A stretch of DNA of 64,000 bases from Mesocentrotus franciscanus (lineage: Eukaryota; Echinodermata; Echinoidea; Camarodonta; Strongylocentrotidae): positions 2,120,390 to 2,184,389 of the forward strand of contig CP137667.1 in NCBI GenBank assembly GCA_037976565.1. Direction: 5' to 3'. Both the position numbers and the translations under genes were made by a program. Of the stretch, positions 4,629 through 61,789 are shown one piece after another. The first letter of the stretch is position 1. Each line of letters begins with the position of its first letter. The notes beneath the pieces are model-generated. The model did not search any database. It worked only from the letters and a program-made list of their open reading frames with translations, and was not told the origin of the DNA.

Positions 4629-5033
4629 TTAAAGATACTATGTCCCTTTTGCAGCCAACATCAAATTCTGTAGAACCTTGCAGGAATTATGAATATGTCA
4701 TGTTTGTCCTATCTGTGAAATTTAAACGTTAGCAGTGTCCTAATATTCAAATCTAGACGACTGACTGACATTTTTTTTTTCTTTAGTAATATTTTTGTGC
4801 AGCACAAAACGTTCATCCATTCTGTACAAGGGTCTGAAAATCAGACTAGTTTCTTTGGTGATTGCAATCACTTAAGTCGATTCAACAACTAATGGTCGTT
4901 ATTTTCCCACAAGAAGCCATTTTCAAGCCCTTTTGTTTTGAGGGAAGTTCTAAATTAGTATTGTCTTTCAAATGCCGTTGGAAATTAACCTTTTCATTTT
5001 TGGGGGCCTGCAAACGGGACATAGTACCTTTAA
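4629..5033. mobile_element. TTAA MITE, family 3, copy 1
   Basis: TTAA at 4629-4632 is followed by AGATACTATGTCCC, and the other end reads GGGACATAGTACC before TTAA at 5030-5033. This is an inverted-repeat, non-coding element with TTAA target duplication, matching copies at 18573-19106 and 51481-52010 in inverse orientation. It is shorter than those copies (~405 vs ~530 bp) because of internal deletion. TTAA duplication points to the Kolobok or piggyBac superfamilies. Confidence 0.8.
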
Positions 5034-18389: not shown

Positions 18390-18576
18390 TTAAAGGTAAT
18401 AGCCCTCATTTGCACACCCTCCCAAATTTCGATGAAATTCTAGTGCGTAGGAGCTCTTAGCCATGATAATAAACGGACCAGTAGTTTTCAAATGATGAAT
18501 GAATAGATTCCTTTTGTTTTCTTTGAATTGAACATATTTATGGTTCGTGGAGGATTCGTTATCAAACTACCTTTAA
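18390..18576. mobile_element. TTAA MITE family 2, internally deleted copy
   Basis: TTAA at 18390 is followed by AGGTAATAGCCCTCATTTGC and the left half of the palindrome. It jumps at ACTACC directly to the right end, consistent with a deletion at ACTACC microhomology. Its right TTAA (18573-18576) is shared with the next MITE. Confidence 0.7.
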
Positions 18577-19106
18577 AGGTACTATGTCCTATTTGCAGGC
18601 CCAAAAATGAAAAGGTTAAATTCCAACGGCATTTGAAAGATAGTACTAATTTAGAACTTCCCTAAAAAAGGGGGCTTGAAAATGTCTTTAAGTGGGAAAA
18701 TAACGAATATTAGTTGTCGAATCGACTTAAGTGCTACCAAGACAGTAAGTAATAGTCTAATTTTCAGACCATTGTACCGAATGGTCATACGTTTTGTGCT
18801 GCGCAAAGATTCAATCAGTTTAATTTTGACCATTACAAGAAGTGGGTTATTGGTGTAGACAAATGCTCATGTACTCTTTACAGCTTATTATATGTATGTT
18901 ATTACCAAAAAAAAAAAAGGCCAGTCAGTCACTCAATAGTGTCTGACAGTGAAGTCTAGCAAGTAAACGGGTTTCCTTGCATAATTTGAATATTAGGACA
19001 CTGCTAACGTTTAAATTTAACAGATAGGACATACATGACATATTCATAATTCCTGCAAAGTTCTACGGAATTTGATGTTGGCTGCAAAGGGACAAAGTAT
19101 CTTTAA
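18573..19106. mobile_element. TTAA MITE, family 3, copy 2
   Basis: The left end is TTAA AGGTACTATGTCC, and the right end is GGGACAAAGTATC TTAA. It is about 530 bp and non-coding, and closely matches the copy at 51481-52010 throughout, including ATTCCAACGGCATTTGAAAG and GGACACTGCTAACGTTTA. Both terminal TTAA sites are shared with neighbouring MITEs of other families. Confidence 0.85.
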
Positions 19107-20976: not shown

Positions 20977-23301
20977 TGTTACACCCACAAATGTAATAAC
21001 GCCCACAAATGTAACAACGCCCACAAATGTAATAACACTTTACCCACAAATGTAATAACACCCACAAATGTAATAACACTTTACCCACAAATGTAATAAT
21101 TTCACCCACAAATGTAATAATTTTGAATCACCCACAAATGTAATATTGACTTTAAACACAAATGTAATAAATTTGAAGGGATATTTTGTCGAATTTGTTC
21201 AAAACTAAAACCCTGTAATAAAGCATGGGTATAGCGCGCAGTCTTTACTCCAGACCCGGTTATTTCAAAAATTTAAAAATCTTCAAAACTAAGACCCCAT
21301 AATCCTTTTCCTGTGGAATAACATGACAATCGAGCGTAGTCTTTCCTCCAGACCCGGTCATTTCAAAAATAAAAACAATAAAAACAAAACCAAAAAAATC
21401 AAATCTAAGACCCAACAATCCTCCAAACTAAGACCCTGTAATAAAGCATGGGTTTAGAGCGTTGTCTTTACTCCACACCCGGTTATTTCAAAAATAAAAC
21501 AAAACAAAACAAAAACCTTTTAAACTAAGACCCTCCATCTTCCAAATTAAGACCCGGTAATAAAGCATGGGTTTAGAGCGTAGTCTTTACTCCAGACCCG
21601 TTTAATTTTTTTAAATCTTCAAAACTAAGACCCCATCATCTTAGTCATGTGGAATAACATGAGTATTGAACGTAGTCTTTCCTCCAGACCCGGTCATTTC
21701 AAAAATAAAACAATAAAAAACAAAACAAAAAATTCAAATCTAACACCCAACAATCCTCCAAACTAAGACCCGGTAATAAAGCATGGGTTTAGAGCGTTGT
21801 CTTTACTCATCACCCTGTTATTTCAAAAATAAAACAAAACAAAACAAAAACCTTTTAAACTAAGACCCCTCCATCTTCCAAATTAAGACCCAGTAATAAA
21901 GCATGGGTTTAGAGCGTAGTCTTTACTCCAGACCCGTTTAATTTTTTTAATCTTCAAAACTAAGACCCCATCATCTTATTCATGTGGAATAACATGAGTA
22001 TTGAACGTAGTCTTTCCTCTAGACTCGGTTATTTCAAAAACAAAACAAAACAAAAACAAAAACTTTAAAATTAAGACCCACCATCTTCCAAACTAAGATC
22101 CTGTAATAAAGCATGGGTTTAGAGCATAGTTGTTCTTCCAGACCCGGTCATTTAAAAAAATGATATAATATATACCATATTTAAATACATTTAAGGTCAC
22201 TTATTCGATTACTTTTTTTCTACGAACATTGAATTCCAGGATATTTGTGGGCGTTAGAATTTTTACATATTAACAAATCGTCGACGGTCAACGAACCATC
22301 GAATCGGTCCCTCCTCTGTGTGTTATATATATGGACCATTTTGACTGATTTGTCAGTTCGTGTGACCGCCGACCAATCATTTATTTGTGACGTGTTGTAT
22401 CCACATATGTTATAATGTAATTTATTTTTAAATGAAAAAAAAAGAGGAATAAAATGGTGGGACTTAGTTTCGAAGATTTGTTTAAATTTCTTTTTCTTTT
22501 GAAATAACCGGGTCTGGAGGAAAAACTACGCTCTATACCCATGTTATTCCACTGGAAAAGAATAGGGAGGTCTTAGTTTGAAGATTTTTTTTTTTTTTTA
22601 AATAACCGAGTCTGAAGTAAAGACTACGCTCTAATCCCATACTTTATTACCGGGTCTTAATTTGGAGGATTGTTGGGTCTTAGATTTGAATTTTTGTTTT
22701 TTTTTGTTTTTTTATTTTTGAAATGTCCGGGTCTGGAGGAAAGACTACGCTCGATTGTTATGTTATTCCACAGGAAAATGATTATGGGGTCTGTTTTTAA
22801 ATTTTGAAATAACCGGGTCTGGAGTAAAGACTGCGCGCTATACCCATGCTTTATTACAGGGTTTTAGTTTTGAACAAATTCGACAAAATATCCCTTCAAA
22901 TTTATTACATTTGTGGGTAAAGTCATTATTACATTTGTGGGTGATTCAAAATTATTACATTTGTGGGTAAAGTGGTTATTACATTTGTGGGTGAAATTAT
23001 TACATTTGTGGGTAAAGTGTTATTACATTTGTGGGTGTTATTACATTTGTGGGTAAAGTGTTATTACATTTGTGGGCGTTGTTACATTTGTGGGCGTTAT
23101 TACATTTGTGGGTGTAACAACCACTTACCAAAATTATTACATTTGTGGGTAAAGTGGTTATTACATTTGTGGGTGAAATTATTACATTTGTGGGTAAAGT
23201 GTTATTACATTTGTGGGTGTTATTACATTTGTGGGTAAAGTGTTATTACATTTGTGGGCGTTGTTACATTTGTGGGCGTTATTACATTTGTGGGTGTAAC
23301 A
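20977..23301. mobile_element. Foldback element 2: 2.3 kb, CCCACAAATGTAATAA arrays as inverted ends
   Basis: The left end is TGTTACACCCACAAATG plus about nine CCCACAAATGTAATAA-type units. The right end is the exact inverse, with about 16 units. Inside each arm are repeats of a longer unit (AAACTAAGACCC, GGGTTTAGAGCGTAGTCTTT, CCAGACCCGG) in left (21190-22160) and inverted (22480-22880) orientation. The core is about 22160-22480. It is flanked by C-runs on both sides (six left, five right), so a target duplication cannot be proved. Within the right arm a ~170-bp block is duplicated (about 22948-23113 and 23130-23297). It has no coding content; long open frames over the arrays are artefacts of the repeat. 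Confidence 0.85.
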
Positions 23302-44975: not shown

Positions 44976-45119
44976 ATGTCGAGCTTCCGCAGACATGTCT
45001 ACATGGAGGAACTAGTACGGATACATCGCCTACCTCCAGGGATGGGGGAGCGAATAACGTGCCACACAAAGTCTGCTATGGGGACCACAGCCCAGAGCCA
45101 CCAATGGGCTAAACTCTGA
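44976..45119 (+). CDS. 47-codon open frame after the gap, possible exon remnant
   Basis: The frame ATG (44976) to TGA (45117) reads MSSFRRHVYMEELVRIHRL, then PPGMGERITCHTKSAMG, ending HQWAKL. The composition is protein-like and GC content rises locally, but it is short and its upstream context is in the gap. No family is recognised. Confidence 0.25.
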   Translation: MSSFRRHVYMEELVRIHRLPPGMGERITCHTKSAMGTTAQSHQWAKL

Positions 45120-45141
45120 AAGGAAAATAATGATATGTTTC

Positions 45142-45223
45142 TTCAATACATGCCTAAGTCTACTTTTTTGTCGTTGTTATGTATTGAATGTAGACATTGT
45201 ATTGTTAAAACTACCCCTTATCT

Positions 45224-45254
<31 letters not shown>

Positions 45255-45915
45255 TCTTTCGTTCTTCATCGCGCTCTCTCTCTCTCTCTTCACTCTCTCT
45301 CTCTCCTCTTTCTCTTCTCTCTCCCTTTCTTTCTTTCTCTTCCTGTCTCTTTTCTCTGTCTCTCTCACACTCCAACAACCAAAATAATATCGACCGTAAT
45401 ATTTTGTTTACTGTTGTATGTTTTACTGATAATTTCATCATTTATTTTCCTCTGTACACCTCTCTTTTTAGTTTTAAAAGAGTAACATCTGTCTTTTTAA
45501 TCAAGTTGATTTGTTAGTTTTAATATGTCCTTCAATCCATGCCTAGGTCACTTGTTGTCGTTATTATGTATTGAATGTAGACATTGTATTGTTAAAACTT
45601 CCTCTTCTCTCTCCCTTTGATGCATGATATAAATAGCGCCCTCTACAATTCTGAAATGGCCTCTTTCTGTAGCCGTTACCCATTGTGTCTGGCTATACCA
45701 GAAATGTATTTTACAGTTCTCTGCTAAACCCGTACCCTCTTTTTGGATTTAGATACTTGAAGATATGTCTTTGTCGTTATGATGTATTGAATGTAGACAT
45801 TGTATTGTTAAAACTTCCTCTTTCTCTCTATCTCCCTTGATGCATGATATAAATAGCGCCCTACAATTCTGAAAACGGCCTTTCTTTCTGTAGCCGTTGC
45901 TCCATTATGCCTGGC
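45142..45915 (+). repeat. ~365-bp satellite, left part (truncated units)
   Basis: Three incomplete units share TTATGTATTGAATGTAGACA, TTGTATTGTTAAAACT, a CT-rich tract, TGATGCATGATATAAATAGC and TTTCTGTAGCCGTTG. The last unit is cut at TGCCTGGC (45908-45915) by the MULE element, and the array resumes in the same orientation at 58964. Confidence 0.88.
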
Positions 45916-45921
45916 GGTTCT

Positions 45922-46402
45922 AGGACAATTACCCTGGGCAATCACCCCGGAAAATTACCCCGGAAAGCTACCCCCAAGGACAATTACCCCGGAAAATTAC
46001 CCCGGAGAATTACCCCCGAGGACAATAACCCCTAAGGACAATTACCCCGGAAATTTACCCCCGGAGAATTACCCCCGAGGACAATTACCCCCAAGGACAA
46101 TTACCCCCGAAATTTACCCCCGGAAAACTACCCCGAGGACAACTACCCCCGAGGACAATTACCCCGAGGACAATTACCCCCGAGGACAATTACCCCCAAG
46201 GACAATTACCCCCGGAAAACTACCCCCGAGGACAACTACCCCCGAGGACAATTACCCCCGAGGACAATTACCCCCAAGGACACCCCCGGAAAACAACCCC
46301 CGAGGACAATTACCCCCGGAAAACTACCCCTGAGGAATTACCCCCGAGGACAATTACCCGCCCCATGGATAACTACGCCTGAGGACAACTACCCCGAAGA
46401 CA
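45922..46402 (+). repeat. Left terminal minisatellite arm, GGACAATTACCCCCGA units
   Basis: About 25-30 imperfect units of 15-16 bp, alternating GAGGACAATTACCCCC, GGAAAATTACCCC and GGAAAACTACCCC variants. The unit length and style match the arm repeats of TU-type foldback elements. Confidence 0.88.
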
Positions 46403-47282
46403 ATCAGGATTCAATAGCAAAGACGATTTGACACATTGAGAGATGTTGTGAAGGCTACGAGCCCATAAAATCCCGTGCATGAACCCACATTCGTTCAAAT
46501 ACTTGCGCGTGATGTTCCTCTCATTACTACACATTTTTCTTTAACTATAATGTATGCAACACCACTGTGGTTGCTGTTTTCTACGAAGGATTTCTCTTGA
46601 GCAGCGTTATTTCAAATTTTTGTTAGACACAGTGCCCTCTTAAGAAATGAAAAGTTTCGCCCAATCTTAAATTCTTCACAAACTATTTATTTTGCATCAC
46701 TCTGGCATTCGTCAAGAGCTATGTACACACGTATGGGCACATTTGTTTCTTGATTTAGTGAACGAGCAAGAAAAAAGGACAAGACATACTTATTTTCTTT
46801 TAATATGGCACCGTACATACCATATATTTAACTTGAAGGCAATTTTTATTTCAAAATAAATTACAGTACAAGAAAACATATTTGAGTTCACCATGACAAC
46901 AGAAATATATATATATATATAAATATATATATTACATTACATTTATAAACATGAAGAGAACCTTTAGTTTGGAATAGATCGTGGATGAGGGCCTATTATG
47001 CATACAAAGACAAATATACTATCAGCTGATTAGAAAAGTTACAGAGGATGCATAAATAATGAAATCTTACATCCTAATTTCTTTGTTGGGCCATTTTGGG
47101 AGACTAGCTGTAACGCGTACTCATCTGCGCGCAATGTATTGTTAAATTTCTAAGAAATGTAAATTCCGTACTTTGATTTGATACATGCGTCTTCTGGCAA
47201 TTGAATTCGATTTGATACATGCGTCTTCTGGCAATTGAATTTGATTCAATACTCGTGGCATATTAAGTCAAACTTCACAAAG
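46403..47282. other. Inner MULE sequence before exon 1
   Basis: AT-rich, with an (AT)n tract near 46903-46932. A 38-bp block containing TTGATACATGCGTCTTCTGG is duplicated in tandem at about 47173-47245, just upstream of the transposase start. No promoter motif is certain. Confidence 0.5.
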
Positions 47283-48021
47283 ATGGAATGGATACAGAGC
47301 GAGAGGGGTGGGCGAAAGCTCCTCCTGGGAGGATACATGTACGTCAAGCAAAAAGATTTGGCAGATGGGTACGAGGGCTTTGAATGTGAGCTACGAAGGA
47401 ACACACGACAATGCAGAGCAAAAATTAAGGTAAGCATCAAACGTACCAACATATTGTGGAGTGAATGACTTGTACCAACCGTTTATTACAATACATAAGT
47501 CCCAGAGCCTATTGGTTCTACGCCACAGCCCATTGTCTAATATATTACCAATATGAAAATGATTAAGGTTGAACAGAGCCTAACAATTCATATAATAATT
47601 TCAAATTTTTTAAATGGACACTAGCATAGCATAAATTTAAGTTAAAACTTTAGACGCACGGCTTCCTAGGACCAGTGATCTCTTTGGTCAATATAATTAA
47701 TGGACAGTCGGCTCAAAAGGGTTGTTCCCCTAAACAGCTCCTTATAAATTCTTAACTGCAAACTTTTAAACGAATTCACCGAGACACAACTGTGTCCGTT
47801 TTTCTTACGTAACGTTTCCATAAAAATCAGAGGTCGCCATTGAGTCATAATTGACTCAACACACCTTAACCCTAATAAGGCCGGGGCAGAGGCACGTCCC
47901 CCGGCCGCTCAAAAATATGTTAAAATCAGCCCTAAATTCGCCAAAATGTACTGAAAAACAGGGACGTGCCCCACGGGCCCCAAAATTCAATAATTGTTTG
48001 TAATAAAAAAAATATAAATTA

Positions 48022-48055
<34 letters not shown>

Positions 48056-49909
48056 AATGCCTGACCTAAAAGTTGACTCCAACGAAACAAAATGTCAAAT
48101 TTACAATTTTCGTGACCAAAAAAAGTGTCCGCTTACCAAACCCCCGCTTTTTCTGCGATTTTTATGGGACCAAAAAAGTGGGGTCCGCTTACACCCCCCG
48201 CTTATTCAGCAATTTTTATGGGACCCAAAAAAAAGTTATCTCCGCTTACCCTCCCCCGTTTATTCAGCGGCTGGCTGAGCCGTTGCGTTTTGGGGGACTA
48301 AAACAAAAATATTTATATGTTCTCTTACCCCCGTGTGCCCCCATATACGCACCGGGAAGAAATTCCTGGATCCGCCCCTGGGCATTATGCCCCCCTCCAC
48401 GATTTTCTAATTGTTCGGGAACGCATATGGATGGCGCCCCGACGCTCGCTGACCTTTTCTTTCGAGTCTTGCGCATCTTTAAAAGAATGTTTTTGAAAAT
48501 CGGATGCTTAAATATGAATAATATATGATTTATGGGTAAAATGTGATTTATGACCTTATTTGCATAAATTACCATAAATATGCAAATAAGTGAATTTTTC
48601 AAAAATTGAAATTATCATAGTATTGTATAATACACTTCACTTGACATGCGTGCAAATTTACGCGGAGATCGGCCGTTTCACGGCAGCGATCTTAAGGGGG
48701 CATAATCACCCCGGCCGTATTAAGAACTCAAAAAGTGATTCGGTAACATTGTTGAAGGTTGATTAAAAACGGTGTAATTTTTGTATGAAATCTTACTTAT
48801 TATATTCCTTTTACTGTACTTACAGGCAAAAATCCTGAGAAAATTCTTAAACCACAAATAAATGCACGGTTTTCTTTGAAGCGGACACTGAGTAACACCC
48901 TTTAACAGTGATTAACAGTAAATTCTCCCAACCATTTTTGAATTTTCCAAACCGTTTTTCCATGAAAATAAGACATAAGACAGGCTTTTAAAATCTTTCA
49001 ACACTAAAATGTCTGGAATGTTATGAAGAGCCAGTTTGTTGCAATCGTCACAAGACGATGTACTTTCACCTGAAATGTAATTAAATTGTGATAATATAGT
49101 TGGGAGAATTAAGGAATCGATCAGTGAGATCAGTTTTTCCCAATGGTTATCATTAATAATGGTCCGTTTTCACTCAAACTTTCAGATTATCTTTAATTGT
49201 ACATCTAGCAATGAAGTCACTGCCTTAGCACCATTTTCTCTCATATAAACAATGTTACCAAGTCCCTTTAAAGACCGAAAAATAAATGATTCGCAAGATC
49301 AATGTCATTGCTGTAGCTAAGGACAGCCAAATTGATGATTTTCCGCACTATATGCAAACATCACACTCGGAGAGGACCTCCTTGCAGTGGTATTTTCAGA
49401 GGAGGGGAGGGGGTGGGCTGGCATTGCCTACCATAAGCACAAGGTAAAGGGGATAAAATAAGAATCACAGTTTAAACTTCATGAAATTAGTGTCGTTGCT
49501 TCAGTTCATAGAGGAACCGTAAGCTTATTAATGATCTACTGAGATCGTAATCAATTACTTAACGGTTATAGCTGAGCACAAGATTAAACAAATAACCACA
49601 TTAAAATATTACTTAAAATTTGGAGACCGGCCTAAAACGCAAACATTTTCCGTAATATGCGTTGCCACCCCACTTTTCAGTGACGATGTTTCCATCATTT
49701 CATGGTTGACTGAGCACAAACAGAGGAAAAAATTATTAAGTCATAAAGGTATTTTTTACTTCTTGTTGTTGAAAGAAACTAAAGACGGCAAGCTAGTCAG
49801 TTACTTTCCCCCACATCGTATTTATTAGGTTATGCTTGAGTGAGCACAAATTAAAGATAGAATACAAAAATGCAATGTCATATTAAACAATAAAGGACAT
49901 CAATTTGTT

Positions 49910-50085
49910 TATGAATAGCGACCCTGATTTCGTATTATGAATAGCGGTCCTTAAGAGTAATGACCCCTAGATATGAATTATGAATAGCGACCCTTATCTC
50001 ACTTTATGAATAGCGGTCCTCAAGAATAACAGTCCTCACGCTTTTGTGAATAGTGGCCTCTTTCCGTTTTATGAATAGCGGTTCT
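49910..50085 (+). repeat. Degenerate tandem repeat, unit TTATGAATAGCGGTCC
   Basis: About seven copies separated by variable spacers, alternating GCGGTCCT and GCGACCCT forms. Confidence 0.75.
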
Positions 50086-50254
50086 TCACGTATCGGAAGT
50101 TCCACGTAATAAATCGCGGTCCTTATGACTAGTGAGGTTACACTGAGCCAGCATGTTTATTAAGGAAAAACATACAATCACACAAACACACAAACAAGAG
50201 AGGAATAGTCACATTTCAAAGGTGATGTAAATGAGTACCTGGTAGGAATTAATT

Positions 50255-50385
50255 CGTTGAAATGCTAGAGCGCCGCAGTGGCCGCCTTGCTAAAGCAAGG
50301 GTAATAATCGGGGCAGCGCCAGGAGCGTCACAACGTGACAGACATGTCCGCTATATAAGAAGCCACCATTATTAATATTATTATG
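50255..50385 (+). mobile_element. SINE tail fragment
   Basis: CGCTATATAAGAAGCCACCA followed by a (TTA)n tail is a common SINE 3' end. The tRNA-derived head is not recognisable. Confidence 0.45.
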
Positions 50386-51480
50386 AAGTAATGGATGGAG
50401 GTCAACGACCTTCTGAAAAACATTGTTCTACAATAAAGGAAGCAATGACATACATTTTAGGAATAAACATGGTTATTTTGTCTTTAATTTGTGCACAGTC
50501 AAACATGACATATAGGTCCAATATGATAAAAGTAACTGACAAGATATACCAAGTTTAATTTCTGTCAATATTAAATGAAATAGAGATATTAAGATTTGTT
50601 TTTGTTGTTAATGTTTTTTTGTTCATTTTCGCTGACCTGAAGTTAGAATTGTGATTATTTTGTTCTTTAACTTGTGATCAGTCATACATGAACTAACGGA
50701 TGTTAAGCAGGGTAACAGGAGGTCATCGATGGGTGTGCATGGTGTTCGCATTCAGAGCTGACAAATCATCAATTTGACAGTCTCACTACAATTAAGCAAA
50801 GGCATTAATGTAGCTAATTTTCCAAATTTTGTCTTTAAAGATAGTATCACACATTTGTAAGCCCTCAAAATCTCGATGAGATTTTTTCTGCAGATGGCTT
50901 GTGATATGCAATACAATTTTTGAACAATACTCTGAAAGATTTAGAGCTCAACCCCTTCCAGTTATGAAGTAGGAAACAAAAATGTAATCAATTATTTTCT
51001 TTTATTTTCCTCATTTTCTATTACGGCGTCTACCAGACGCTTTAAGAAGGAAAATATTAAAATTGTCATTAATAATATTTTCAGTAATAATAATGACATT
51101 ACATTATCGATAACATTGTGGCGTATCCGCACTCCTCTCCAATTTGCTCAGAAAATGTAATCAACTTAATTCTCTTCGTTGTTGATGACGGAATAGATTT
51201 CTTCCATACAAGGATTGGATAGGAAAACACATTTGAAATAGTATATTTAGGGTGCATGTATAACTGAAAATTTTGTCTAAGGAAAATAAAGATTTCTGAT
51301 TTTTAGTACAGAGTAGAAGGGAGGGAGTTTGCAACTTAAACAAAATAAAATCTTATCTTTAATCGGAATTCATTTAAACTTTCACCGACCCATTCCTCTC
51401 ATTTACCTGCTTGATTAAGTATGACTGGCTACTTCTGGTTTCCACACAAATATTTCTGTAAAAGCACAGATACAATCCTG

Positions 51481-52010
51481 TTAAAAGTACTATTCCCATT
51501 TGCAGGCCAAAAATGAAAAGGTTAAATTCCAACGGCATTTGAAAGATAATACTAATTTAGAACTCTCCTAAAAACGGGGTTTGAAAATGTCTTTAAGTGG
51601 GAAAATAACAAATATTAGTTGTCGAATCGACTTAAGAGCTATAGAGCCAGTAAGTAACAGTCTGATTTTCAGACCATTGTACCGAATGGTCCGAACGTTT
51701 TAAGCTGCGCAGTGATTCAATCAGTTTAATTTGGCCATTACAAGAAGTGGGTTATTGATGTAGGCAAATGCTTATGTACCCTTTACAGCTCATTTTATAT
51801 ATGTTATTACCAAAGAAGAAAAGGCCAGTCAGTCACTCAATAGTGTCTGACGGTGAAGTCTAGCAAGTAAACGGGTTTCCTTGCATAATTTGAATATTAG
51901 GACACTGCTAACGTTTATATTTCACAGATAGGACATACATGACATATTCATAATTCCTACAAAGTTCGACAGCATTAGATGTTTGCTGCAAAGGGACATA
52001 GTATCTTTAC
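51481..52010. mobile_element. TTAA MITE, family 3, copy 3
   Basis: The left end is TTAA AAGTACTATTCCC and the right end GGGACATAGTATC, with the last TTAA decayed to TTAC. It is nearly collinear with the 18.6-kb copy over ~530 bp. Confidence 0.82.
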
Positions 52011-52376
52011 GGTTCAAAGGAAATCCAACCCTTGTAACAATTCCATTGCTTTTAAGGAATGAAAGCAGATACATCAGAGAAACAGAATGGCAAAAGTTTG
52101 GAATAAATCGGACCAATGATAAGAAAATAATGAATGTTTGATATATGAGATCACTATATACATCCATGCAAATCTCAAATTGGCAATTCTCTCATTGGAT
52201 TGTGCCGTAGTGACAAATAACCCTTCGTTTGTCTTGTACACAAATATGAAGATTTTTTTTTCTTCTCCCAAGCGCCTTCACCCTTGGGGCACTACTTAAA
52301 ATATAATATGGAGAGTATATTATTACAGGTTCTCTAGAAATAATTTTTTGTGTGTAGGAACAAACGGGAAAGGGAG

Positions 52377-52735
52377 TGTCGTGGTCGAGTGGTTTAAGGC
52401 GCTTGACTTGGAGATTCGAAGGTCGAGGGTTCGAATCCCGACACGGCACTAATATCCTTTGGCAAGATATTAACCTGCACTTGCTACTCTCCACCCAGGT
52501 GTTAAATGGGTACCCGGTAGGATGCGACCGTCATTGTTGGTCAAACAGTTTTTGAGCGTCATGTAACGCCTGGCTGGAATGCTCCCCAGGGAGTGGAGAT
52601 TGTGCACACATTGTGTGCGGGTAAGCACTGAATCCAATGACCGGGGTAATAATATATTTGTAAAGCGCTTAGAGACATTTGTATTTAGCGCTATATAAAT
52701 TAAATTTATTATATTATTATATTATAAAGTTGTCT
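52377..52735 (+). mobile_element. tRNA-derived SINE, about 360 bp
   Basis: The head carries A box GTGGTCGAGTGGTTTAAGG and B box GGTTCGAATCC, resembling a Leu/Ser-type tRNA. The body includes GGTACCCGGTAGGATGCGAC, and the tail reads GTAAAGCGCTTAGAGACATT then GCGCTATATAAAT with a (TTA)n end. This head-body-tail order is that of tRNA SINEs that share a LINE-type 3' tail. It looks complete. Confidence 0.85.
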
Positions 52736-53254
52736 GCCGCTACTTTATACAGAAAATACCGATTCGGCTAATTCGAAGAGCCCTACCTATATATATTTTT
52801 TTTTTTATTTATTCATGGTTAAAAACAAATACAACTTGTGCCCGCATTCAGCAAAAGCTGTTTTTTCAGCGAGGCAGTGATTACATAAAATTCGAATAAA
52901 ATTTAAAACAATGAAAATATAATTCACAAACAAATATGAAAGTTATAATAAATGAACATATTTACAGAAATTTAACTACAAAATCAAATCATAGTGACAA
53001 GGGGAAAAAACCCAAAACAAACACAAAACAATCAAATAAACAATTAAGTTTGTATCTACGGGATGAAAGTGATTCTAACTTTCAAAAATTCAAACTTTGT
53101 TCAACACGCTTCACTAATTTTTCAGGTTTAGTCTTGAGAAGTTAACTATCAATGTTGGACTCCCCGTTAACAAAAAATCACAAGGAGTTGCTTTTAGGAA
53201 ACTTAATTCGTTGTGTTGAGATCAACGTACATGTAGCTATTTAGGGTGAATTGC

Positions 53255-53465
53255 CGTTTGGTTAACAACCAGCCAGTCTACTATCCACTTTGTCCCATAA
53301 TAGTTTCGTCTACTTATCGTTAGATCTAGCGGCCATCTAGGACGACAGTCATTCGGTCTAATCCCCAATTAATCTATTACCATTTGGTCTATTATTCATT
53401 TTGTCTGATTCCTAGTTTTCTAAATGCCCATTTCGTCTACCATCCATAATGCCTAATAATTAGTG
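53255..53465 (+). repeat. Degenerate minisatellite with CCATTTxGTCTA words
   Basis: Repeated ATTxGTCTAxT and CATTTCGTCTACC words about 20-30 bp apart. It lies just upstream of the CT-rich tract (53505-53562) that leads into exon 2. Confidence 0.6.
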
Positions 53466-55745
53466 GATGATTAATAGCCTATATATATGGGAATAATGTT
53501 TTATCTCTCTCAATCTCTCTCTCTCTCCCCACACTTCCTCTCTCTCTCTTTTTCTTTTTCTCTAATAGGTCATGGGTGATAACCAATTCCGCGATAGAAC
53601 GGAGCATAACCATCCGCCTAACCATGGTAGAAGCAATGCTACGAAGGTTAAAGCAGCAACGAAGAGAAGGGCCACTGAGTCCAATGAAAGACCACAACAG
53701 GTGCTTATGGCGACACTATGCGAGGTAACAGAGGAAGGGCGGGCAGCGCTACCATCACTAAACAACATGAGGAGGAATATCCGGAGACAGCGCCAAGAGA
53801 ACCCAAACGCCCTCCCCATTCCCATGACTGTGGAAGATCTGGAAATCCCTGTAGATCAACGATTGACGCTGGGTGGAGAGCTTTTCCTTTATCACGACTC
53901 TGGAAGAAACGACCCTCGCCGGATTTTAGTGTTTACTACGGAAAGGAACCTTCAGGTAAGAACAAGTGTTGGGGTTCATTGCCATTTGGCCTTCTACGGT
54001 TCCGCAATTTTAGGAAGTGCTGCAAAAGCATACGTATTGAGTAAAAAGATTTCAGGATTCATTAGAATGAATTGAAATTGTGAGGTCATCATAAAGATAT
54101 CCAAATACTTCCTATAAAATTGAAATTGAAATTAAATTAAAATTGGTTATTATTCTCGACAAAGTACAGGATCGGTTCTAGAACAATTCTGAGGGGGTAT
54201 TGTTCTGATACGACATGATCTCCTATTTCGATTATGTTTTTTAATTATCATGCTATGATAATTAAAAACAGTAAGTAAGTAAATAAAATAGCTTGGAAAT
54301 AATACATACAATTTTGCAAGTGAAACAGTTTGTTTGTTTGAAATATATAATATTCGATGCAAATGTATTCATTCTGTTTTGCTACTAGTTGCTGTCAACG
54401 TCTGAAAGTTGGTTCGCTGATGGCACGTTCAAGGTAGTGCCGACCATCTTCTTCCAGTTGTGGACAATCCACGCCACATATGAGGGACATGTGGTGCCTT
54501 TGGTTTATTGCCTCATGCTAAATAAGGACCAGGCGTCATATGCAAGGGTACTAGCAGCACTACAGGAGGGAAGGGCGTTCTACCCAACCAGAATCATGAT
54601 CGACTACGAATTTGCAGCGAAGAACGCATTTTCCCAGGCATTTCCAAATGCTCACGTTCAAGGATGTCTTTTTCATCTCTGTCAGAGGATACATGAACGG
54701 GTATGGTGATATTTATATATTGACAGTTGATCCCTTTTTTTTACCCGCCATTTATTGATCAAATAGTACATTCAAGGCTCATGGCTAAAAAAAAAGAATA
54801 GTGATACAAATATTAGGTAGAGTTTGAAATTTGAGTAAGTGGACTTGCAAGCCATGATAAATGCTGAGGAGAGAGGGGGAGGACTCTAATAAATATTTTT
54901 TCTTTTAATCATCCTTTCAAGCCCAGTAACAAAAGCTTTATATGATGATTAGAGGGTAGGGGCTAGGGGCTATATCTCTTTTCGATTGTGCCTAAAACTG
55001 ACCTGAAAAAACACGGACCTCTAATCGCCAGGGGAGGGGGAATATAATCGATAGTTATACTGAAAATTGGTAGGCCACAAGGAAGCTGAGTAGGATACAA
55101 GCATGTTATTTTCTCCTATAGGAAACGCTCATTGCGTATAGTCAGGCAAGGGAGAAAATTTCGGGCAGCCCTGGCGGATTCGGGCGAAAAATAGGGGACA
55201 GCGGTTTGTTCCTCCCCTCCCCACACTAAATGAACAGTTACCAATATCTATGCATTTTGCTCAATGGGTAGACAACAAACAATATTTCTGAAGTGTGAAA
55301 GGGCTGGTACATGTACTGTTATGAGTTTTATATTATTATTTTTAGATCAAGCAAGAAGGGCTGCAGGTGCTCTACAACGAGGATGAGGAGATCCGGACAC
55401 AGGCGAGAATGATAGGAGCGATTGCATTTGTGCCAGTGGAAGACACCGTGGAGGCGTTTGAAGCCTTGGCAGGCATTGCAAGGGCAGAGCTGCAACCTGT
55501 CCTCAATTATTTTGAGGATACTTATGTGGGTCGACCTCAAAGAGCCGCGGGACATGGTCGCCAGGCAGCGAGGTTCCCGCCCATAATGTGGAACATGTTC
55601 AATGCGACACTGCAGGGGAATTTCGCACGAACAATCATGTGGAGGGCTGGCACCGAAGGTTCCAGATCGGCGTCGGTGCCGACCACCCTCGTTTTGGCAG
55701 TTTTTGACCTGCCTAAAACGGGAACATGCCATGAACGAAGTAACG

Positions 55746-56565
55746 ATCGGACAAGCGCAAGCTGGAATGGCGCCTCCCGCACGTAGGAGAGTGTACCAAG
55801 ATACCAATCTCCGGCTCATCAGGCTCGTTACTAATTACCATGGGAGAGACATTGTAGATTTTTGAGGGGCGTGTCCCATAATCTTCACTAACGATCAGTC
55901 ACCTATGCTATTGTACAGTTTTTGATCAGTCCAGTTGAATTGTTTTAACATGCAGGACCTCCCATTTACTTGGCATTACATTATATGGGATGTTTTGTTT
56001 TACATTAAGAGATGCGTATATACATTGTTGAATACAGAATGATATCATTTGATATCTTCTTTTTGTATGCATTTGATCGTTTTCAGGATAAAAGTTTCTA
56101 TTTTTTTTAATTCTCTTTTTTACTGTTTCATGTTTATATGATAAGCATGATTAGCATCGGGCAGCGCAAGCTGGAATGGCGCCTCCCGCACGTAGGAGAG
56201 TGTACCAAGATACCAATCTCCGGCTCATCAGGCTCGTTACTAATTACCATGGGAGAGACATTGTAGATTTTTAAGGGCGTGTCCCATAATCTTCACTAAC
56301 GATCAGTCACCTATGCTATTGTACAGTTTTTGATCAGTCCAGGTGAATTGTTTTAACATGCAGGACCTCCCATTTACTTGGCATTACATTATATGGGATT
56401 TTTGTTTTACATTAAGAGATGTGTTACGTATATACATTGTTGAATACAGAATGATATCATTTGATATCTTCTTTTTATGCATTTGATTGTTTTCAGGATA
56501 AAAGTTTCTAGTTTTTTTAATTCTCTTTTTTTACTGTTTCATGTTTATATGATAAGCATGATTGT
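55746..56565 (+). repeat. 409-bp tandem duplication of the MULE gene 3' end
   Basis: AGCGCAAGCTGGAATGGCGC and all following sequence, including the final ~35 codons, stop region and 3' UTR, occurs at about 55746-56154 and again at about 56155-56565. In the second copy the stop is TAA rather than TGA. The copies differ at few positions, so the duplication is recent relative to the exon 4 frameshifts. Confidence 0.88.
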
Positions 56566-56714
56566 GATGATCTTTGCCTCTGAGTTTTACTTTGGGATGT
56601 CAGAACTCTGTTTTTAGTACATGACTTTGATAAGTCTCCTCCTTTGGCTTCCTTCAAGACAGCAGGAAGGTGTTTTATTTGTGTTAATGTATCATTAATA
56701 TTTATCATGTTTAT

Positions 56715-57592
56715 CCTCTTCAAATATGGTTTTGGGCAATACGCGCCAAAATTTGCTGGACAGAAGTTTTATCGTTGCAGAAAAAGCTCTTCGTATTAAT
56801 CGCAACTCTCAGTCGCGTTCCCTTACAAATCCTATATTCTTTGAAAATAGCATGTTAATAATTAATGACCTCTATCTCTTCCAGTTAGGCCAGTTTTTGT
56901 AAACTAACAGTAATGACATGCTCTCAATTTTATTCATGATGTGTTCCTCCCCCCCCCCTACAAAAAAATTACATTGTGGTGACTTTCATTTACCTCTTCT
57001 AAATACATTTATCTATGCCGGTCTCAAATTTTGGAACTTTTCACGTATTTGTACTAAACTTGCCCCATCACTCCATTCTTTTAAGCGAAAAGCGAACTCG
57101 TTTCTTTTACAATCTTATAAAACATATTAAATCTTCGCGTAGTCAACTCGTGTTTTACTCCCCCACAGATTGCGTTTGTGACCTTTCATATAATGTCAGT
57201 CTTCGTCCTATGTCTCTGTTGGATCATGTTCACCCAGACGTAGGAAAAGCATGTTGTTATACATTTTTAAATTATGAATTTATAATTCATAAGTTCTCAT
57301 TTCACAATTTCAGATTAATCTGTTTTGTCTCCAAATGTATATGTATTTATTCCATATGTTTATTACTACCGTCTTTTGAGGGATCCACATTCTACAAATC
57401 CCGCTTCTCAGTAGATCCCTCCATTTTCACAGTTTTTTACTTTTAAACAAACGAAACATCACTTACAGCACATGTATACATTCTTTTGTAATTTAATTAA
57501 TGATTTTCAAAATGATTTATGTAATTGATTTCTTGTCATAATTGTTTATATTGATAGTTCTGTTGGAAGTGAAAATAAAACTGAAAATTGAA
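56715..57592 (+). pseudogene. LINE 3' fragment: ORF2 C-terminus and 3' UTR
   Basis: The frame reads EKALRI, NPIF, LYLFQLGQFL (stop) then, after a frameshift, FHLPLLNTFI, LKFWNF and LAPSLHSFKRKANSFLLQSY, ending at TAA 57128-57130. The UTR ends with GTGAAAATAAAACTGAAAAT, a typical LINE tail. It is 5' truncated and lies between the MULE gene end and the right arm. Confidence 0.7.
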
Positions 57593-58447
57593 ACACTGTT
57601 TGAAATGCTATTAAAGTTATTCACTTGTGATAGAGAATGTAAATAGTTAAAATATTGCATCTTGTATGTCAATTTACCTCCGCAACATTTTAAGTTCAAT
57701 ACCTTTTCTTTTATATAAAGAATGATGACAAAACAAGAATAGGATTTTCACCACATTAACTCGTACACTAGAGAACCATAAACAGCTAAACAAAAAATAA
57801 ATTTTAAGCACAGTCTAAGTAGACATATTCCTTTGCTTCCAGAATTCATGAAAAGTCAAAGTTTTAGGAGACTTGGAGGCCACACTGAATAACGTCAAAC
57901 AAAGCTGGCGAGAAGCGAACATCGTCACTAATGCTTAAGCGTCCCTTCGATTTTTAATCTCTGTTAAACTCGTTAAGAACAAAAGCTTGTCAATTTCATA
58001 TGGTTCATAGAATTACCATGACCACGTTTCAGGGGGAAAATAAAGTAAAAATGCCTGCTTTAACCTTTTCTGAGATGGAGGTAGTGGATGTTTCTATCTT
58101 TCATATGGCCTAGAGTTTGAAAAAGTTTCACCAATTAAAAATTAGAAAATTATGATTTGTTGAAGGTGCAAACACAAATATGCAACTCCGTGACGTGTCT
58201 TGTGAGCTCCCGCCTATTTGCCCTGTGCTAGAAAACTTTAAAAAATCTGTATTCTTCCTTAACAAATTTTCCACATACATTCACCCAAAATATAATTAAA
58301 TATAATTATTGCAAATATGTTTATACACAACCCCTGTACGAAACAAATCTATGCCGTCATAAATAACTAAGAAAATGAAAGTTCATGACATTTTCTCTAA
58401 ATAGCAATTTGAAGCGGAGCTCGCATTATACGTCACAGTGTTGCAAA
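57593..58447. other. Inner MULE sequence before the right arm, no gene
   Basis: AT-rich sequence with no supported coding or RNA feature. Confidence 0.5.
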
Positions 58448-58957
58448 TTCCTGGGTGTGATTGTCCTCGGAGGTAATGGTGTTTCGAGGGGGTAATTGTC
58501 CTCGGGGGTAGTTGTCCTCGGGGGTAGTTTTCCGGGGGTAGTTGTCCTCGGGGGTAATTGTCCTCGGGGGTAGTTGTCCATGGGGGTAATTGTCCTGGGG
58601 GTAGTTGTCCTCGGGGGTAGTTGTCCTCGGGGGTAGTTGTCCTCGGGGGTAATTGTCCTGGGGGTAGTTGTCCTCGGGGGTAGTTTTCCGGGGTAGTTGT
58701 CCTCGGGGGTAATTGTCCTCGGGGTAGTTGTCCTCGGGGGTAGTTTTCCGGGGGTAAATTTCCGGGGTAATTGTCCTTGGGGGTAATTGTCCTCGGGGGT
58801 AATTCTCCGGGGTAATTTTCCGGGGTAATTGTCCATGGGGGTAATTGTCCTCGGGGGTAATTCTCCGGGGTAATTTTCCAGGGGTAATTGTCCTTGGGGG
58901 GTAGTTTTCCGGGGGGTAATTTTCCGGGGGGTGATTGCCCAGGGGGTAATTGTCCTG
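58448..58957 (-). repeat. Right terminal minisatellite arm, GGGGGTAATTGTCCTC units
   Basis: Inverted counterpart of the left arm. The outermost ~100 bp show the same order of variant units as the left arm read from the other end. The long open frame on the minus strand with PRTTTPRT repeats is an artefact of the array. Confidence 0.88.
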
Positions 58958-58963
58958 ATACGG

Positions 58964-59698
58964 TGTCTGGCTATACCACAGAAATGTATTTTACAGTTCT
59001 CTGGGTTAAACCCGTACCCTCTTTTGGATTTAGATACTTGAAGATATGCCCTTTGTCGTTATTATGTATTGAATGTAGACATTGTATTGTTAAAACTTCC
59101 TTTTTCTCTCTCTCTCATTCTTGCATTGCTCTATCTCTCTCCCCCTCTCTCTCTTTCTCTCTCCCTCACTCTTTCATCGCTCTCTCGCTGATTGGGAGAG
59201 GGTGGCAGATTAAAACGCCCACAAGCTGGTCTAATCCAGAAGCGGAATTGAGCCCCTTTGATGCATGATATAAATAGCGCCCTCTTAAATTCTGAAAATG
59301 GCCTTCTTTCTGTAGCCGTTGCTCCATTGTGCCTGGCTAAACCACAGAAATGTATTTTACAGTTCTCTGGGTTAAACCCGTACCTTCTTTTGGATTTAGA
59401 TACTTGAAGATATGCCCTTTGTCGTTATTATGTATTGAATGTAGACATTGTATTGTTAAAACTTCCTCTTTCTCTCACTCTCTCTCATTCTTGCATTGCT
59501 CTCTCTCTCTCTTTCTCTCTCCCTCCCCCCTCTCTCTCGCCCTCACTCTTTCATCGCTCTCTCGCTGATTGGGAGAGGGTGACAGATTAAAACGACCACA
59601 AGCTGGTCTAATGCAGAAGCGGAGTTGAGCCCCTTTGATGCATGATATAAATAGCGCCCTCTTAAATTCTGAAAATCACCTTCTTTCTGTGGCCTTAG
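58964..59698 (+). repeat. ~365-bp satellite, two units right of the MULE element
   Basis: The unit runs GTGCCTGGCTAAACCACAG, CCCGTACCCTCTTTTGGATT, TAGACATTGTATTGTTAAAA, (CT)n, CGCTGATTGGGAGAGGG, TGATGCATGATATAAATAGC, TTTCTGTAGCCGTTG. The second unit is cut at TAG (59696-59698) by foldback element 4. Confidence 0.9.
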
Positions 59699-60976
59699 TA
59701 GTCAGGTGGCTTAGTGAAATTATCGTTACTTGCCGGATAAAAGCACCATTTTTGGTACAGGGCTCCCTTAGGACCTACTAAACGATATTAGGCTAGGAGC
59801 CCCCAGCAAAAATTTCAATTTAAGGGTGTGGGGGCGGGGGCGTCTTTTGGAGCCCCCAAATAATTTTATAACATTGATTTGTTGTTGTACAAATGCCATT
59901 TTTAGTACAGGGCTCCCTTAGGAACTACTAAACGATATTAGGCTAGGAGGCTCCGGCAAAATATCATATAAGGGTGTAGGGCGGGGGCGTGGCCTCGTAG
60001 CCCCCAACAAATTTAGAAGGTAATATAACATTTATTTGTTGTTGTAAATATTTTGGTACAGGGCTTCCTTAGGACCTACTGAACGATATTGGGGTAGGAG
60101 CCCCCGGCAAGAATATCATATAAGGGTGTGGGACAGGGGCGTCGCTTCGTAGACCCCAAATAATTTAGAAGGTAATATAACATTTATTGTTGTTGTACAA
60201 ATGCCATTTTTGGTACAGGGCTTCCTTAGGACCTACTGAACGATATTAGGGTAGGAGCCCCCGGCAAGAATATCATATAAGGGTGTGGGACAGGGGCGTC
60301 GCCTCGTAGTTTACAAATAATTTGTAAGATAATAAAACATCGATTTGTTGTTGTACAAACGCCATTTTTGGTACAGGGCTTCATTAGGTCCTGCTGAATG
60401 ATGGTAGGGTAGGAGCCCCCGGCATACATATTCATATATGTGTGATTGGGGGCCCCATGGCGTTTGTACAACAACAAATCAATGCTATATTATCTTACAA
60501 ATTATTTGTGGACTACGAGGCGACGCCCCTGTCCCACACCCTTATATGATATTCTTGCCGGGGCTCCTACCCTAATATCGTTCAGTAGGTCCTAAGGAAG
60601 CCCTGTACCAAAATGGCATTTGTACAACAACAAATAAATGTTATATTACCTTCTAATTTATTTAGGGGCTACGAGGCCACGCCCCCGCCCTACACCCTTA
60701 TATGATATTTTTTGCCGGGGGCTCCTGCCCTAATATCGTTCAGTAGGTCTTAAGGAATCCTTGTTCCAAAAATGGCATTTGTACAACAAATCAATGTTAT
60801 AAAATTATTTGGGGGCTTTAAAAAGACGCTCCCGCCCACCCTTAAATTGAATTTTTTGCCGGGGGCTCCTAGCCTTATATCGTTTAGTAAGTCCTAAGGA
60901 AGCCCTGTACCAAAAATGGTGCTTTTATCCAGCAAGTAACGATAATCGATAAATTTGACGCTAAGCCACCTGACTA
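59699..60976. mobile_element. Foldback element 4: 1.28 kb, ~155-bp units in opposed arrays
   Basis: The ends TAGTCAGGTGGCTTAG and CTAAGCCACCTGACTA are perfect inverted repeats, flanked by TAG at 59696-59698 and 60977-60979. The left arm has about five units (TTTTTGGTACAGGGCT, ACGATATTAGGCTAGGAGCC, GGGTGTGGGGCGG). The right arm has about three inverted units, and the centre is near 60450. A complete satellite unit at 61267-61295 shows the uninterrupted site CTGTGGCCGTAGCTCC. No coding capacity. Confidence 0.88.
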
Positions 60977-61345
60977 TAGCTCCATTGTGCCTGGCTAAAC
61001 CACAGAAATGTATTTTACAGTTATCTGGGTTAAACCCGTACCCTCTTTTGGATTTAGATACTTGAAGATATGCCCTTTGTCGTTATTATGTATTGAATGT
61101 AGACATTTTATTGTTAAAACTTCCTCTTTCTCTCTCTCTCTCTCTCATTCTTGCATTGCTCTCTCTCTCTCTCTCTCCCTCCCCCTCTCTTTCTCTCTCC
61201 CCTCACTCTTTCATCGCTCTCTCGCTGATTGGGAGAGGGTGGCAGATTAAAACGCTCACAAATGACCTTCTTTCTGTGGCCGTAGCTCCATTGTGCCTGG
61301 CTAAACCACAGAAATGTATTTTACAGTTATGTGGATTTAGATACT
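60977..61345 (+). repeat. ~365-bp satellite, final unit and partial unit
   Basis: It resumes at TAGCTCCATTGTGCC and goes through the (CT)n tract and TTTCTGTGGCCGTAGCTCC. The next unit is truncated after AGATACTTGAAGATATGCCC. Confidence 0.88.
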
Positions 61346-61789
61346 TGAAGATATGCCCTTTCCAGCCAAATACAAAAAAATTATACCCTCTCATTGAACG
61401 GCTATGCGAATATTGCCTTCATAATTTGCACTTTTCAAGAAAATTGCGAAATAACTTCAATTACCTTGCTCTAAAATAGTAATCTTTATACATATGTCCA
61501 ATGAAACTTGGCAGACATTATGGATCCATACACGTGACAACTGTCTGTCAAGTTCGGAAGAATTTGATGACTTTATCAAAGTTATCGCCCAAAATGATGA
61601 ATTTACTATGCATTACGTAACGGCCCGTTTAATGCTTGAAATACATTGCGCACAGATGACCATGGTGTCAAACTGACCTCATTGCAATGCCCTTTCGAAT
61701 GATACCAAATACAGTATATGTTATCACAGAAAATGTTGAGTAAATAGCATTTGAACAAGGGTCACTATACGAATTCCGCTGAGTTTCCG
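61346..61789. other. No recognised features
   Basis: Short frames such as the one at 61494-61676 have no supporting context. Confidence 0.4.

Follow-up and report, generated by a model that had tools for sequence, protein, structure and literature searches.

Within the window, a stretch of 64,000 nucleotides from Mesocentrotus franciscanus, we identify what is very likely (probability roughly 0.9) a cut-and-paste DNA transposon of the Mutator superfamily, of the FLYWCH (Phantom/Muta) type, whose ends are foldback-like and whose transposase gene has four exons. The sequence basis for this reading covers the arms, the outer tips, the gene and its domains, the flanking repeat, a set of empty sites and a miniature copy (Table 1), while the binding of arm units, the cutting step and the mobility of the element are what we infer.

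Table 1. Coordinates of the element, its parts and the sites compared with it, numbered from the first base of the window (TRF, Tandem Repeats Finder)
Feature	Position	Strand	Basis and remarks
Transposon	45916..58962	+	13,047 bp; joined flanks minus 9 bp align across the junction; tips recur in the miniature
Left target-site duplication, ATGCCTGGC	45907..45915	+	7/9 identical to the right flank GTGTCTGGC; inner 8 bp 7/8
Right target-site duplication, GTGTCTGGC	58963..58971	+	Comparison with the left flank
Left outer tip, GGTTCTA, then GGA	45916..45922	+	Sequence; outside the inverted repeat; recurs at 54174
Right outer tip, reading inward CGTATCA, then GGA	58956..58962	-	Sequence; unlike the left tip; recurs at 54206-54212
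Left arm, array of ~16-bp units (AGGACAATTACCCCCG and variants)	45922..46404	+	TRF; arm alignment
Right arm, the left-arm array inverted	58449..58957	-	TRF; arm alignment
Exon 1, FLYWCH domain	47283..47429	+	PF04500 E 9.6e-7 on frame 47205-47468; P0001 residues 1-50 at 47283-47432, 100%; GT donor
Exon 2, His pair completing the zinc finger	53569..53955	+	P0001 residues 50-179; acceptor and donor; H62, H64 nearly invariant
Exon 3, MULE domain with DGTF, DYE, GCLFH	54389..54700	+	PF10551 E 8.1e-15; P0001 residues 179-283
Exon 4, coding part, third catalytic residue in TNNHVEGWH	55346..55865	+	More than one frame; P0001 residues 283-375, 373-402, 397-455 in frames 2, 1, 3
Tandem duplication of exon 4 end and downstream DNA, two ~410-bp copies	55746..56563	+	96.1% identical
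Miniature, 39 bp, with the two outer tips and a degenerate arm unit at either end	54174..54212	+	Tip scan, flanks
Dispersed repeat inside intron 1	51481..52009	+	91.2% to 18573-19105 over 534 columns; also matches 4630-5033
Empty-site match	59255-59457		95.1%, unbroken at the junction
Empty-site match	45606-45809		90.1%, unbroken at the junction
Empty-site match	60979-61115		97.1%, unbroken at the junction
Empty-site match	61268-61361		75.2%, gap elsewhere than at the junction

Tandem Repeats Finder gave both arm arrays a period of 16 and opposite orientations, and the spacing between unit starts is 16 bp in 12 of 25 cases in the left arm and 15 of 29 in the right. When the left arm is aligned with the reverse complement of the right, 466 of 495 ungapped columns are identical. 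The order of the variant units was compared with a null in which the right-arm units were shuffled 300 times and the best alignment score was kept: the real order scores 372.5, against a shuffled mean of 292.0 and a maximum of 328, and the order is therefore shared between the arms. The opposed minisatellite arms with one common order of variant units, as described in the initial annotation, thus hold up both in the alignment and against the shuffles. The inverted part starts with AGGACAATTACCC at either side, and outside it the tips are unlike. Long inverted arms built of short tandem repeats are ends of the foldback type.

A scan of 8–10 bp pairs near the element ends returned only one pair with at most one mismatch, TGCCTGGC and TGTCTGGC, identical at seven of eight positions. 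Because both flanks are satellite DNA, a flanking repeat alone is weak evidence, and the junction was therefore examined by joining the flanks with 0–12 bp removed and comparing them with other satellite units, the chunks around the insertion itself being excluded. The best fit came with 9 bp removed, at which the joined flanks have nine matches in the window: two are the flanks themselves, three stop short and four span the junction. These four show the satellite to be continuous except for the 13-kb segment and one short duplication. The near-identity of the 8-bp flanks that had been noticed from the letters (7/8) stands, and the length of the duplication is now put at 8 or 9 bp, the removal of 9 bp fitting best; if it is 8 bp, the last base of the transposon could instead be 58963. 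An 8–10 bp target-site duplication, as in Mutator elements, is present in imperfect form (9 bp at 7/9 or 8 bp at 7/8), and we count this imperfection, together with that of the 7/8 repeat flanking the miniature, against the reading.

Apart from the element itself, a tip scan of the window found one site with both outer tips, at 54173–54212 in intron 2, where the left 16-mer has one mismatch and the right 15-mer two. Among 60 length-matched Markov sequences there were no tip pairs and no left tips, and the right tip alone occurred 0.2 times per sequence. The site is flanked by ACAGGATC and ACATGATC, identical at seven of eight positions. We read it as a deletion derivative inserted into its relative; it could possibly be a remnant that never transposed, in keeping with its imperfect flanking repeat.

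Since both arm arrays adjoin satellite DNA and the window is rich in tandem arrays (83 TRF rows), one might suppose that two independent minisatellites lie opposite each other by chance around an unrelated MULE gene. We give this explanation very little credence: the arms share their unit order far beyond the shuffles, the satellite runs on in other units without the 13-kb segment and 9 bp, and the two outer tips occur jointly in the miniature. These three results largely refute two solo minisatellites and therefore argue for one transposon. The FLYWCH-MULE transposon with foldback-style array ends that had been proposed is upheld in its boundaries by the empty-site comparison and the tips of the miniature.

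The transposase gene has three introns with GT donors and AG acceptors, and the database protein P0001, whose cluster has 20 member sequences, covers exons 1–3 unbroken when aligned to the window. A domain search recovered two domains, PF04500 (FLYWCH) in the exon-1 frame and PF10551 (MULE) in the exon-3 frame, while the exon 2 and exon 4 frames, tested likewise, gave no significant Pfam domain. Across the 18 rows of an alignment of relatives the catalytic D, D and E are invariant, as are C271, H274, the D and E of DYE, DGTF and TNN..E..H, and the G and W of the EGW motif are nearly so. The MULE DDE domain is that of the Mutator superfamily, and the N-terminal FLYWCH finger, in which C35, H62 and H64 are nearly invariant, is that of the Phantom/Muta type.

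Exon 4 shows two frame changes and then a stop after residue 455, 9 residues short of the end of the database protein, and from this stop we infer a further break, making three in all. The end of the exon is also tandemly duplicated (55746–56152 and 56156–56563); the two copies differ at several positions, chiefly by short indels that could stem from assembly error. Of the four-exon gene annotated initially, the exons, GT–AG introns and motifs were thus recovered and an intact exon 4 was not, and the suggestion that the element is autonomous is not supported by this copy, whose exon-4 frame is broken. The disruption could reflect either a decaying copy or assembly errors, and this copy may therefore depend on other copies now.

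We searched the database with the joined protein and obtained 59 matches among 8000 scored candidates sharing most words with it. The Strongylocentrotus purpuratus protein LOC115920726 (464 aa) is 99% identical over the whole query, followed by proteins of Lytechinus pictus (65%), Diadema setosum (62%) and the crinoid Antedon (65% over 61% of the query). The near-identity with LOC115920726 suggests either one and the same locus or a copy made very recently. A FastTree phylogeny was built from 84 of 141 fetched proteins, namely those of 400–520 aa with numbers up to P0112 plus the named ones, five FLYWCH-only proteins being dropped. In this tree, which has no outgroup, the four echinoderm proteins group with a support of 1.0, and the element shares its branch with further echinoderm proteins; the tree includes insect, mite, rotifer and ichnovirus relatives and is without a named reference Phantom, Muta1 or Tm1-A. 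Three further proteins from S. purpuratus and L. pictus (P0045, P0052 and P0056) have in common with the transposase the part encoded by exons 1–2, the FLYWCH domain and the next stretch, at 55–60% identity and with no MULE domain match, and are possibly host genes derived from such a transposase. Pattern stretches in viral contigs (46) and genome contigs (19) yielded none confirmed as a relative, as expected for an animal element.

The gene lies deep inside the arms, further repeats have entered the interior and the window contains more foldback-like elements that lack a recognised gene, all of which would suit a non-autonomous foldback element, with arms from another family, into which an unrelated MULE was inserted as a passenger. 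We consider this improbable, since a search around the gene turned up no second MULE-type end pair, the long inverted repeats found at 45.8–59.1 kb being the arms themselves, and since an 8–9 bp flanking repeat, a FLYWCH-MULE transposase and short-repeat arms also occur together in Muta1 and Tm1.

The dispersed repeat in intron 1 occurs at three places in the window and is probably a nested insertion here. We also checked the window's further foldback-like elements for shared arms or an 8–10 bp flanking repeat, and two came closest. At 20977–23301, opposed arrays of ∼18–23 bp units (ACCCACAAATGTAATA) have inner parts that are inverted too, at 85.4% over 656 columns, and the right arm includes an exact 182-bp tandem duplication. 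At 59699–60976, within the satellite that flanks the transposon, a third structure has inverted arms of ∼157-bp tandem units (88.1% over 528 columns). The arms of both differ from those of the transposon, and neither is flanked by an 8–10 bp repeat with one mismatch or none. An Rfam scan of 45000–60000 found no family at gathering score.

How a single transposon of this kind might work can be outlined from its parts. FLYWCH is taken to be the DNA-binding part and MULE the nuclease of such transposases. The N-terminal FLYWCH finger would probably bind the arm units, such that each arm would act as an array of binding sites with a period of ∼15–16 bp, and the RNase-H-like MULE domain (D, D, E) would cut beside the two unlike outer tips, which would be the cleavage sites. 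The element would insert with a duplication of 8–9 bp. This copy landed in one unit of the local satellite, after which intron 1 probably took up other repeats and intron 2 a 39-bp miniature of the element's own kind.

The TU elements of sea urchins were among the first animal foldback elements described, reportedly in S. purpuratus by Liebermann in 1983. Their arms consist of ∼15-bp repeats and their duplications are 8 bp. By this description they would resemble the present element in the ∼15-bp arm repeats and perhaps in the duplications, which are 8 or 9 bp here. None of the matches listed concerned a transposase that moves foldback elements in sea urchins, in a search without the original TU and Phantom papers, and this does not mean that none has been published. 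It is conceivable, though we think it unlikely, that this family is the transposase source of the S. purpuratus TU elements, its arms being either the arm repeat of TU or a sister repeat, with the FLYWCH finger reading the ∼15-bp unit, and more widely that a period of ∼15–16 bp beside unlike tips followed by GGA is an end design ancestral to the FLYWCH MULEs of animals, kept from nematodes to echinoderms. The presence of other foldback-like families, at 20977–23301 and 59699–60976, lowers the odds that this element is TU. If the TU arms do match, the old question of what moves TU becomes testable, and in either case the window offers a well-delimited, transposase-bearing sea urchin foldback element whose ends are exactly placed and whose arms supply a candidate binding unit.

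The Phantom family is said to go back to Marquez and Pritham in 2010. In the available parts of two sources, Phantom combines FLYWCH and MULE domains with target-site duplications of 8–10 bp, and some members are said to have foldback-like ends or sub-terminal inverted repeats (PMC3169594, PMC6446971), all of which resembles the present element. The Phantom host row in the portion available of the second names no echinoderms (PMC6446971), whereas several echinoderms have genes of this kind, seen as unnamed database proteins. Galileo, of the P superfamily, and FARE, a MULE, are described in the excerpted text as foldback elements with long, internally repeated inverted arms (PMC3169594); they are like the element in these arms, and Galileo differs in its P-type transposase. 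More than one superfamily has given rise to foldback ends.

One of the closest known parallels is Muta1 of Aedes aegypti, a FLYWCH MULE ending in tandem repeats; its authors, in the sections available, call it a type 2 foldback element, and it transposes in yeast (PMC5225508). According to the same sections, FLYWCH is found in 13 of 14 Muta families and short subterminal tandem repeats in ten, with units of 12 bp plus 3–4 bp spacers in Muta1 and of 15 bp in Muta5 (PMC5225508). Muta1 thus resembles our element in its FLYWCH and DDE transposase, its ends of short tandem repeats with a unit period of ∼15–16 bp (12 bp plus spacers), its 8 or 9 bp duplications and its derivatives that keep the ends only. 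It differs in being 3.2 kb long, with 145-bp ends, a 10-bp palindromic outer motif and two exons, whereas the element has ∼500-bp arms, unlike outer tips, four exons and a length of 13 kb.

Tm1 of the root-knot nematodes Meloidogyne pairs a Phantom-type FLYWCH-MULE transposase with foldback-like arms and, in the parts of the paper at hand, has 8–10 bp duplications, tiny derivatives and arm units of mostly 14 bp (PMC3169594). Its two 7-bp tips are unlike, CGGTTAA at A1 and CCTACCC at A2, each followed by GGA and then by tandem units (PMC3169594), as in the element with (C)GGTTCTA and CGTATCA. Counting the preceding C, the left tip of the element becomes CGGTTCTA-GGA, a likeness that is striking but short, the C also lying in the duplicated flank. 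Tm1 differs in the sequence of its arm unit and in having 1–9 units per arm, against roughly 26–32 in the element, and Tm1-A is without the last His of the finger, whereas the element has both (PMC3169594). With Tm1 (PMC3169594) and Muta1 (PMC5225508) already in print, the pairing of foldback ends with a FLYWCH-MULE transposase is not new in kind; what is new, as far as the literature searched shows, is a sea urchin family with exact ends. Even without a match to TU, the likeness to Tm1 in unlike tips, GGA and ∼15-bp units suggests that these ends are a conserved working layout, not a by-product of repeat expansion.
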